50,843 nucleotides of DNA from an uncultured Prochlorococcus sp. (GTDB lineage Bacteria > Cyanobacteriota > Cyanobacteriia > PCC-6307 > Cyanobiaceae). Positions 1,326 to 30,508 of this stretch are shown here, one piece after another. The first letter of the stretch is position 1; each line of letters opens with the position of its first letter. The notes beneath the pieces are model-generated. The model was not told the DNA's origin. It saw only the letters and a list, made by a program, of their open reading frames with translations, and did not search any database. The position numbers were made by a program, and so were the translations under genes. Location: contig CACFCB010000006.1 in the NCBI GenBank assembly GCA_902564695.1, forward strand, positions 1-50,843. The letters are read 5' to 3'.

Positions 1326-1389
1326 CTCTATTGTTTGAAATAGATTCTTCTCGATAACCTACGCATCAAAGAAGCATATTGCATTCAAG

Positions 1390-1995
1390 ATGACTGAACT
1401 AATCTCTTTAAATTCTGAATCCGCAACAAATAGATTAGTTTTATTACATGGCTGGGGAGCAGATGCTCAAGATTTACTGCCAGTTGGGAATTTATTAACC
1501 GAAGGGTTTAATGATTGTTTTGAAATAGTTTCTCTTTCTGCTCCTCAGCCTCATCCAAGTGGATCTGGTAGGCAATGGTACCCTTTATATCCTCATGAAT
1601 GGGACCAGGTCCCAAACGCGTTGTTAGATCTTGAAAGGCGCCTAAATAATCTTTGCTTTGAACAAATACCTTTAAATAAAACTTTGCTTCTCGGCTTTTC
1701 CCAGGGAGGCGCTATGGCGCTAGAGCTTGCTATGAGAAATAAGTTTGGAGGGGTTTTTGCTATTAGCTCTTATCCTCATCCAGAGTGGAAACCCTGTAAA
1801 AATAAATCACCTATTTTTCTTTTTCATGGAACTATGGACCAAGTAGTACCAATGGCAGCTTCTAAGAGAAGTTTAGAGATATTGTTGAATAACGAAATTA
1901 AATCTGAACTATATCTATTTGAAGGGGGCCATGAGATTAACAATGATCTTATTAATCATTGTCGAGGAATAATCGAAAAACATTTTCTAGATTAA
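1390..1995 (+). CDS. Alpha/beta hydrolase, phospholipase/carboxylesterase family
   Basis: A 201-residue single-domain serine hydrolase of the small carboxylesterase/acyl-protein thioesterase type. The nucleophile elbow GFSQGG (residues 102-107) places the catalytic Ser at 104. HGTMDQVVP supplies the probable Asp, and GGHEI near the C-terminus the His. The oxyanion-hole HG (residues 20-21) lies in LLHGWGADAQD. No signal peptide or membrane segment is seen, so it is probably cytosolic. The substrate cannot be told from sequence. Its stop overlaps the stop of the convergent DUF3155 gene by a few bases. Family assignment is firm; the specific function is not. Confidence 0.85.
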   Translation: MTELISLNSESATNRLVLLHGWGADAQDLLPVGNLLTEGFNDCFEIVSLSAPQPHPSGSGRQWYPLYPHEWDQVPNALLDLERRLNNLCFEQIPLNKTLLLGFSQGGAMALELAMRNKFGGVFAISSYPHPEWKPCKNKSPIFLFHGTMDQVVPMAASKRSLEILLNNEIKSELYLFEGGHEINNDLINHCRGIIEKHFLD

Positions 1996-28330: not shown

Positions 28331-28780
28331 TTGTTATATGTGAAAGTGCAAACTGTGAGTGAAGACACTAAAACAAATTCAAATCCTCTAGATGATTTGA
28401 AATCTGATGAAAAACAAAATCAAGTTTTTGCATCTAATCAAAAAAACTCAATTAAGAATTTTGATCCGAAATTCAATCGCTTCGAATGCTTAAGTTGTGG
28501 TTTCATTTATGATCCTGATGAGGGGATAAAAAAGCTTAATATTGTTCCAGGAACAGCATTTTTAGACTTAGATCAAGAGAAATTCAGATGTCCTGTTTGT
28601 CGAGTAGGATTTGGAGGATATAAAGATATTGGACCTAAATCAAAGCCTAGTGGATTTGAAGAAAACTTAACTTATGGCTTTGGATTTAATAAACTTCCCT
28701 CAGGCCAGAAAAACGTACTTATTTTTGGAAGCCTGGCTTTAGCCGCTGCCTGTTTTCTCTCTCTTTATTCTTTGAAATGA
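28331..28780 (+). CDS. rub: Membrane-anchored rubredoxin (RubA)
   Basis: A rubredoxin with the FeS4 knuckles [13 protein letters not shown] and [13 protein letters not shown], preceded by a variable tail of about 45 residues and followed by one C-terminal transmembrane helix ([20 protein letters not shown]). In cyanobacteria and chloroplasts this protein (RBD1) is needed for photosystem assembly, which fits its place before ycf48 and psbE. The start is ambiguous: TTG 28331, GTG 28340 or GTG 28355 (the last giving [10 protein letters not shown]) are all possible. Its TGA overlaps the ycf48 ATG by 4 bp. Confidence 0.93.
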
Positions 28781-29793
28781 AACGCCTGTTTTCAAATGTC
28801 ATTAATTTGACCCTTGTTTTGATAGTTGGTTTAGCTCTTGGCGGTTGCACTGTTAGCAATGCAGCCATGAGAACATCAAGTCCATGGTCACCTATCGATT
28901 TGGATACTGAAGCAAATCCATTGGATGTTGACTTCGTTGATGACAAAAATGGCTTTTTAGTTGGAACAGATAGGTTGATTTTGGAGACAAATGATGGAGG
29001 AATTACCTGGAAAGAAAGAAACTTGGATATTCCTAGCGAAGGTAATTTTCGTCTAATAAGTATCGATTTCAAAGGAGAAGAAGGTTGGATAGCGGGGCAA
29101 CCAGGTTTGATTCTTCATACCTTTGACGGAGGAAAGAATTGGACTCGTCTCGATTTGGGAAATAAATTGCCAGGTGATCCTTATTTGATAACTACTATTG
29201 GTTCTGATGTTGCTGAGCTGGCAACTACTGCTGGTGCAATTTATAAAACTATTGATGGTGGCACAAATTGGGAGGCCATAGTTCTTGATACTTCAGGCTC
29301 TGGAGGAATTAGAGAGCTAAGACGTACGAAAAATGGTAGTTACATAAGTGTAAGTAGCCTAGGGAATTTCTTCTCAGTTCGCAGACCAGAACAGGAAACT
29401 TGGAGTCCACATCAAAGAGCAAGTAGTAAGAGAGTTCAAAGTGTTGGTGAACAGCCTAATGGAGAGCTATGGATGCTCTCTAGAGGAGCTGAAATAAGGT
29501 TCAATGCAGATCCTGATGATATTGATTCATGGTCTAAACCAATAATCCCAATAGTTAATGGTTATAACTATCAAGACCTTGCTTGGGATCCTTCTAATTC
29601 CATTTGGGCCGCAGGTGGAAATGGAACTTTATTAGTTAGTAACGATGATGGTAAAACTTGGGAACAAGATCCTGTTGGAGATTCTGTTCCTACAAATTTC
29701 ATAAGAATCTTGTTTGTGGACGATTTAAATAGTGTCAATTCAAAAGGATTTGTATTTGGTGAAAGGGGGAATTTGTTGCGATGGCAGGGTTGA
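28777..29793 (+). CDS. ycf48: Ycf48/HCF136 photosystem II assembly factor
   Basis: A 338-residue lumenal lipoprotein that helps insert and protect the D1 protein during PSII assembly. The N-terminus has a signal peptide ending in a lipobox (LIVGLALGGCTVSN), with the lipid-bearing Cys about residue 24. The rest is a beta-propeller of repeated Asp-Gly-Gly-x-x-Trp motifs such as ETNDGGITWKER, HTFDGGKNWTRLD and KTIDGGTNWEAI. The ATG overlaps the rubredoxin stop (ATGA). psbE follows 108 bp later, the classic cyanobacterial rub-ycf48-psbEFLJ order. Confidence 0.96.
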   Translation: MKRLFSNVINLTLVLIVGLALGGCTVSNAAMRTSSPWSPIDLDTEANPLDVDFVDDKNGFLVGTDRLILETNDGGITWKERNLDIPSEGNFRLISIDFKGEEGWIAGQPGLILHTFDGGKNWTRLDLGNKLPGDPYLITTIGSDVAELATTAGAIYKTIDGGTNWEAIVLDTSGSGGIRELRRTKNGSYISVSSLGNFFSVRRPEQETWSPHQRASSKRVQSVGEQPNGELWMLSRGAEIRFNADPDDIDSWSKPIIPIVNGYNYQDLAWDPSNSIWAAGGNGTLLVSNDDGKTWEQDPVGDSVPTNFIRILFVDDLNSVNSKGFVFGERGNLLRWQG

Positions 29794-29901: not shown

Positions 29902-30150
29902 ATGGCTGCCGGATCTACCGGGGAACGCCCGTTTTTTGAGATCATTACTAGTGTCCGCTATTGGATTATCCATGCTGTGGCACTACCTGCGATCTTCGTT
30001 GCAGGATTTCTATTTGTGTCTTCTGGGCTTGCCTACGACGCTTTTGGAACTCCTAGACCAGATACGTATTTTCAGGCTGGAGAAACCAAAGCTCCTGTTG
30101 TTGTTCAGCGCTTTGATTCCAAGGCTGAACTTGACACTCGTCTGAAATAA
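29902..30150 (+). CDS. psbE: Cytochrome b559 alpha subunit
   Basis: An 82-residue PSII subunit. The haem-binding His is residue 24 in [20 protein letters not shown], within the single membrane helix. The lumenal tail contains [13 protein letters not shown] and ends [13 protein letters not shown]. It is complete and normal in length. It needs PsbF as partner to bind haem, but the next gene here is psbL, 29 bp downstream, with no psbF between (see findings). Confidence 0.97.
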
Positions 30151-30179
30151 CCAAATTTCATCTGATTGCTTTTTTATCC

Positions 30180-30299
30180 ATGCAAGTCAATCCAAATCCA
30201 AATAAGGTTCCGGTTGAATTAAACCGGACAAGTCTTTATCTTGGACTCTTACTTGTTTTTGTAATGGGAATTTTATTTTCCAGCTACTTCTTTAACTAA
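30180..30299 (+). CDS. psbL: Photosystem II protein L
   Basis: A 39-residue gene. The product starts [20 protein letters not shown] and continues with one hydrophobic helix ([13 protein letters not shown]) and the typical end SSYFFN. PsbL lies at the PSII monomer interface near the quinone site. It begins 29 bp after psbE and ends 11 bp before psbJ. Family match over its whole length is clear. Confidence 0.96.
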
Positions 30300-30310
30300 A
30301 TCTCTTTATC

Positions 30311-30508
30311 ATGAGCAAATTAAAAGGACCTGATGGACGAGTAGGAGATCGTCTCCCCGATGGCCGTCCTGCAATCTCCTGGCAAAGACGATGGACGGAA
30401 GGTGCGCTTCCATTATGGTTAGTTGCTACTGCAGGGGGAACAGCTGTGATTTTTGTTCTTGGTATTTTCTTTTACGGTTCATATACTGGTATTGGTAACG
30501 CTGGTTAA
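30311..30508 (+). CDS. psbJ: Photosystem II protein J
   Basis: A 65-residue product with the Prochlorococcus-type long N-terminus ([20 protein letters not shown]) before a single helix ([20 protein letters not shown]) and the ending [13 protein letters not shown]. PsbJ sits beside cytochrome b559 and affects quinone exchange. It is last in the operon and followed by a strong terminator at 30550. Confidence 0.96.

Follow-up and report, generated by a model that had tools for sequence, protein, structure and literature searches.

The window, by which we mean the whole stretch of 50,843 nucleotides analysed here, is an entire contig (C6) of the genome of an uncultured Prochlorococcus sp. (1.44 Mb in 76 contigs, 72% complete). 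It carries psbE, psbL and psbJ downstream of ycf48 (Table 1), and the order ycf48-psbEFLJ is given in a passage of PMC4823308. The 29 bp that separate psbE from psbL are too short to encode PsbF. This spacing had been reported in an initial annotation, together with intact PsbE and PsbL frames and the lack of a PsbF-like helix in any other frame of the window, and we confirmed all three observations: the coordinates agreed with the family matches, both proteins scored above curated cut-offs, PsbE was the sole PF00283 match in the window, and a search of all six frames for VR[WYFT]x3[HN] with a P after it returned PsbE only, at 29953. The PsbE of the window retains its haem-ligand His and has Ala three residues after it (H+3). 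That psbF is missing was correct for the operon and the window; it did not hold for the genome, in which a "long form" of PsbF lies on another contig (C5).

Table 1. Features of the psbE-psbL region, the long-form psbF and associated loci.
Feature	Position	Strand	Remarks
ycf48, PSII assembly factor	28777..29793	+	Usual upstream neighbour of psbEFLJ
psbE, cytochrome b559 alpha	29902..30150	+	PF00284 64.7 bits, TIGR01332 118 bits; over curated cut-offs; intact
psbE-psbL stretch without psbF, 29 bp	30151..30179	+	27-30 bp in 30/30 genus loci read
psbL	30180..30299	+	Intact, over curated cut-off
psbJ	30311..30508	+	Intact, over curated cut-off
Long-form psbF, 97 residues	Own genome (G000), contig C5:10751-11041	-	PF00283, TIGR01333, NF002717
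c1 and c2, membrane-like families	Own genome, contig C5; locus L202 9134-9565 and 10199-10672		Linked with long-form psbF
Gln-type PsbE	L120, L121, L122 (G046, G041, G042) at 1357-1605	-	PsbF His retained

The gap between psbE and psbL is real and is not an assembly error, since every locus read in this genus (g1; 30 of 30, one per genome and our own included) has the same psbF-less junction, and two of these loci come from single-contig genomes. A strong PsbE match was present in 34 genus genomes, and the gap was read in all of them but G004-G007. A sequencing or assembly deletion, one of the choices offered by the initial annotation, might be expected of a genome in 76 contigs at 72% completeness, but the common junction excludes an assembly error as the cause, and the probability we would still give to such a deletion is vanishingly small. 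Genus g1 is probably Prochlorococcus ecotype LLI, as we assume. The comparison of operons was extended to other relatives, and an in-operon psbF was also absent from G045, a single-contig genome of another genus (psbE-psbL distance 34 bp), and from G160 and G159 of genus g22 (104 and 109 bp), in whose gaps no psbF remnant was recognised by eye. In operons that include psbF, psbE and psbL are separated by 152-208 bp (n = 32), and by 160-167 bp in three more loci.

The search for PsbF in the rest of the genome, which the initial annotation had recommended, matched the long form on contig C5. At E values up to 10, PF00283 found PsbE and the long form and nothing else in our genome. The long form scored 64.1 bits against TIGR01333 (cut-off 61.15), 36.8 bits against PF00283 (cut-off 30) and 173 bits against NF002717 (cut-off 153). 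It is already known to annotation, as NF002717 and NF002720 bear the NCBIfam name "cytochrome b559 subunit beta, long form"; our protein passes the former, and the latter is passed in 54 genomes of our family sample (272 genomes, among them our own; all others are 90% complete or better). Compared by names and scores, these entries are silent on the PsbY part, the lost His and the absence of the normal gene. Unlike the usual psbF, the long-form gene does not lie between psbE and psbL. Thus, the relocation of psbF that the initial annotation had considered is right in that the sole PsbF detected lies elsewhere, but it is a different protein; because the long form coexists with a normal psbF in many relatives, replacement by a divergent paralogue is indicated, not plain relocation.

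The long form was present in 31 of the 41 genus genomes (with one copy truncated, in G014) and in 15 of the 17 that are at least 90% complete. It was found in 22 of the 30 psbF-less genus genomes read and not in the other eight, which are all drafts, 51-93% complete. Two of these eight, G008 (93%) and G019 (90%), also lack the usual neighbours of the long form, so the contig that carries it is likely missing from their assemblies. TIGR01333 gave a single match in 15 of 18 genus genomes searched and none in the other three, all drafts, and in each of six single-contig genus genomes PF00283 matched PsbE and the long form at E ≤ 1e-5 and nothing else. Neither our own genome (E up to 10) nor the genus genomes searched (E ≤ 1e-5) contained a hidden short psbF. 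Among distant copies of the long form, the PsbF helix showed a dN of 0-0.062 at a dS of 0.56-3.7, and these values point to purifying selection on the long form and not to decay. An AlphaFold model of the protein was weak (pLDDT 66.5) and had no match by Foldseek. Phage copies were not found by tblastn in phages, and among viral contigs none of 31 pattern matches was confirmed.

We next consider the residue that would bind haem. Each subunit of cytochrome b559 provides a histidine, as stated in a passage of PMC9214863. The normal PsbF helix reads FTVRWLAVHALAIP and that of the long form FTVRTLAVNALGIP; our long form is thus without the axial haem-ligand histidine of PsbF. Asn occupied the ligand position in all 30 genus copies of the long form, and His in all 35 short PsbF loci. 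In the best 80 of 242 confirmed loci, those from named genomes, all 80 had Asn and none of the proteins contained a His at any position; these loci were ranked by similarity to an Asn query and so demonstrate conservation, not the absence of His forms. The named loci of that scan come from Prochlorococcus strains, single cells and MAGs, four being labelled only Synechococcaceae. The Arg five residues before the ligand position, which is a haem propionate contact according to a section of PMC4709441, is invariant in the long-form alignments. These findings lend support to the "very unusual PSII" that the initial annotation listed among its choices, as the surviving PsbF has Asn where the ligand should be.

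The long form consists of an N-terminal helix, a loop of about 30 residues and the PsbF helix, and several comparisons indicate that the first of these is PsbY-like. A profile of 14 long-form N-termini, searched against 177,635 PDB sequences, gave nine matches, the first eight being PsbY (E 0.0045-1.2). By hhalign, the N-terminus aligned to PsbY at 94.7%, compared with 0.6% for PsbL and 1.9% for PsbJ, although these two controls were shallow (three rows for PsbL, one sequence of which was entered by hand, and a single sequence for PsbJ). PF06298 scored 13.5-18.2 bits on three of six long-form N-termini, below its cut-off of 24, and the N-terminus of our own protein had no Pfam PsbY match. The free-standing PsbY of G042 (24.4 bits against the cut-off of 24, and 22.5 bits in the genome search) bridges the two by hhalign, at 94.6% to PsbY and 98.5% to the long-form N-terminus. 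In four g22 loci (L192 9337-9570, L193 9557-9742, L203 9819-10004 and L204 9204-9392), an ORF of 61-77 aa just downstream of the long form contains MDIRxLIVGxPF, a free-standing copy of the PsbY-like helix; it had no Pfam match, and the L193 ORF aligned to the long-form N-terminus at 97.6%.

PsbY is placed beside PsbE and PsbF in the crystal structures described in a passage of PMC4823308. A single chain with PsbF and PsbY helices, as in the long form, also exists in the PDB: 7YMI_F, a chain of 99 residues labelled PsbY, whose source is Acaryochloris according to a passage of PMC12661325. This chain gave the best match in the PDB to the long form of G045, with both parts aligned, and the second part of the chain was also found in the N-terminal profile search. 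In contrast to the long form, 7YMI_F has the opposite order (PsbF 4-47, PsbY 62-83) and retains the ligand His. The two fusions are apparently independent, and a second one in opposite order favours the view that PsbF and PsbY, as neighbours, function together as a unit.

Across the family sample, the long form was present in 81 of 272 genomes, a set listed by hand that includes the truncated copy of G014 and a weak one in G048. Short psbF was also present in 60 of the 81; the other 21 were 16 genomes of genus g1 plus G045, G048, G146, G159 and G160. G048 and G146 had no PsbE match and were excluded from the psbF losses. Neither PsbE nor PsbF was found above chance in six family genomes (G084, G231, G232, G267, G280 and G286), which shows that the region can be absent from assemblies. 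Over 388 genomes sampled from the class, our own included, full-length long-form matches were confined to the family, and outside it there were two weak matches of 59-60 bits that covered the PsbF half only.

In the lineages without an in-operon psbF, no separate psbY was detected in the genomes tested. No psbY scored over the cut-off in any of the 28 genus genomes tested (of 41 in all, with the gap read in 21 of the 28), in G045, or in either of G159 and G160. Of 87 g22 genomes, 56 were tested, and among the 53 of these that carry psbF, G146 being excluded, 47 had a separate psbY: 31 of the 35 that have the long form and 16 of the 18 that do not. The remaining six of the 53 also had no psbY match. 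Thus, both of the subunits contained in the fusion went undetected as separate proteins in the lineages without an in-operon psbF. One other genome, G049, has a normal psbF but neither a psbY match nor a long form, possibly an independent psbY loss.

The number of genomes should not be taken for the number of events. PsbE of g1 and of G045 share two substitutions, Thr to Ala at H+3 and Thr to Ser at H+17, neither of which was seen among the 24 distinct PsbE of His type that come from operons with psbF; H+3 is Thr in all 24 and in the Gln-type PsbE of psbF-carrying operons. PsbE of G159 and G160 has two other substitutions, at H-1 and H+10. Because the two groups differ in this way, we count two lineages and not 31 independent cases. 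In-operon psbF appears to have been lost in these two lineages, and with only two independent losses the counts overstate the statistics. Position H+3 corresponds to T26 of Thermosynechococcus PsbE, where a mutation (T26P) was studied, as mentioned in PMC4709441.

In view of these data, we consider it very probable that this Prochlorococcus genus lost the psbF of its operon because a divergent PsbY-PsbF fusion took over, with the His of PsbE as the sole haem histidine. Replacement of both subunits, PsbF and PsbY, is most likely, since the psbF-less genomes tested have no detected psbY and most have the long form. As a single hairpin, the fusion would occupy the adjacent positions of PsbY and PsbF in PSII, and it would pair with normal PsbE as the beta subunit of cytochrome b559; its incorporation into PSII, its membrane orientation and its haem state are as we infer them. 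The haem of this cytochrome would have the PsbE His as its only histidine and would be five-coordinate or weakly ligated, with the sixth site open or taken by Asn or water, or it would be absent.

It might instead be argued that the long form has an accessory or assembly role and that PSII of this genus works without any PsbF. The long form does coexist with a normal psbF in most of the genomes that have it (60 of 81), it lies away from psbEFLJ and adjoins uncharacterised genes, and it has lost the haem ligand. Against this, where psbE was read and psbF was absent, 22 of 30 genus genomes had the long form, as did G045, G159 and G160; the PsbF helix of the long form is nearly invariant; and no stable PSII assembles without either subunit of cytochrome b559, according to a section of the review PMC4709441. 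We therefore regard an accessory role as very unlikely and favour replacement by the fusion.

The reciprocal case occurs on the alpha subunit. Among the 35 short-psbF loci, PsbE had His at the ligand position in 32 and Gln in three (G041 and G042 of g2, and G046 of g5), these counts applying to the fetched loci, in which the residue was read. PsbE of the three genomes reads TDIKFWVIQIVTLP, in which Gln occupies the ligand position and Lys replaces the Arg that precedes it; H+10 is Ser in all three, as it is in G159 and G160. G042, a single-contig genome, had no further PF00283 match besides noise. The PsbE His, in turn, was present in all 30 genus loci and in G045, G159 and G160. For 36 genomes psbE was read and one ligand was missing; whenever the partner subunit was detected in these, its histidine was kept. 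Loss of a single histidine therefore appears to have occurred on more than one occasion in cytochrome b559, and no locus read had lost both. This pattern hints that a one-histidine haem is retained, because the second histidine should be free to change if the haem were absent, and on this ground we favour a one-histidine haem over none.

Two conserved and uncharacterised membrane-like families, c1 and c2, are linked with the long form. The c1 proteins have RFxAIWVLPI-like motifs, and c2 has an invariant LWHxYMFP with one invariant His. Each accompanies the long form in 77 of 81 genomes; the four exceptions are genomes of genus g31 that have both PsbF forms. Without the long form, c1 was found in nine genomes and c2 in three, G042 being in both groups. 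Among the 80 named loci (the best 80 of 242), the fetched flank contained c1 in 72 cases and c2 in 73. Neither family had a Pfam match over the cut-off; in the PDB, c1 had no relative and c2 had matches at E 1.5 or worse only. We also compared c1 with PsbE as a possible distant relative, and this was rejected at 0.2% by hhalign. In G162, a genome without the long form, c1 and c2 stand 786 bp apart (G162:C4:20472-22030), which looks like a secondary loss of the long form from between them.

In a rival reading, the long form serves as the beta subunit of PSII and another protein, such as c2 or c1, gives the second haem ligand or a partner function. The invariant His of c2 and its near-constant company with the long form (77 of 81 genomes, and the flank in 73 of 80 named loci) would fit such a role, and G042, which has lost the PsbE ligand and has no long form, also has c1 and c2. 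However, G005, a single-contig genome dependent on the long form and with no other TIGR01333 match, has a c2 that is broken across two frames and contains a stop (G005:C1:794576-794997). The other two Gln-PsbE genomes are without c2, and c1 is present there only as a broken piece in G046; c1 and c2 are both absent from the four g31 genomes that have the long form, although normal psbF is kept there; and neither family has a meaningful PDB relative. Such a contribution from another protein is therefore improbable in our judgement, and we retain the reading in which the PsbE His is the only haem histidine.

Two kinds of genome depart from the usual arrangement. G172 (g22) has two complete long-form modules (L203 9509-9802 and L204 9405-9698) plus a normal psbF, the module being c1, a small PsbY-like ORF, the long form and c2. 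The g31 genomes without c1 and c2 (G261, G262, G274 and G276) are larger, have two psbY matches each and are probably marine Synechococcus; the gene that adjoins their long form resembles, by eye, a pentapeptide-repeat protein.

The published mutants bear on how such a cytochrome might work. In Thermosynechococcus, H23A/M alpha mutants have one histidine ligand removed and their PSII is active with the apo-cytochrome, as described in parts of PMC4709441 and PMC9214863. In Synechocystis, nearly all substitutions at either ligand (His22/ligand mutants) listed in the relevant part of PMC4709441 abolish photoautotrophy, Gln being among those listed there and Asn not. The view in the initial annotation that a loss of psbF should be fatal to PSII was thus too strong with regard to the haem-less Thermosynechococcus mutants, and it agrees with most of the Synechocystis ligand changes (the same part of PMC4709441). 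The published mutants show both fatal ligand loss and active PSII with a haem-free cytochrome b559, and from sequence alone either a one-histidine haem or none would be compatible. Those ligand mutants were engineered in the laboratory, whereas the changes in Prochlorococcus are natural.

We think it likely, with somewhat less assurance than for the replacement itself, that oxygenic photosynthesis does not always involve a bis-histidine haem b559 and that Prochlorococcus gave up one ligand at least twice, by Asn on the beta side and by Gln on the alpha side. The haem would then be held by a single histidine, with a sixth site open to small ligands such as oxygen or superoxide and a catalytic in place of an electron-transfer function, or it would be missing; genomes with both PsbF forms could switch PSII between these two states. 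If this is true, a whole Prochlorococcus group may run PSII with an altered or missing cytochrome b559 haem. The role of this haem is an old open question, and a passage of a recent review (PMC12661325) gives no consensus on its redox role; here one ligand appears to be naturally gone, on either subunit. Because the groups are free-living and partly cultivable and have relatives with both PsbF versions, the question could be tested on existing cultures without mutants. Within a literature search that covered part of the journals, and in the portions of text it returned, a missing psbF, Asn or Gln ligands and a PsbY fusion in Prochlorococcus were undescribed.

SS120 presumably carries both PsbF forms. 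In the part available of a proteomics table for this strain, PSBF_PROMA and PSBE_PROMA are listed and the long form is unmentioned (PMC5451487). A "PsbF-like protein" of Prochlorococcus MIT9312, PMT9312_RS06075, is transcribed according to a passage of PMC6517427 that contains no sequence or haem analysis; we infer that it is the long form from its tag number, which fits the long-form map position in g22 genomes.
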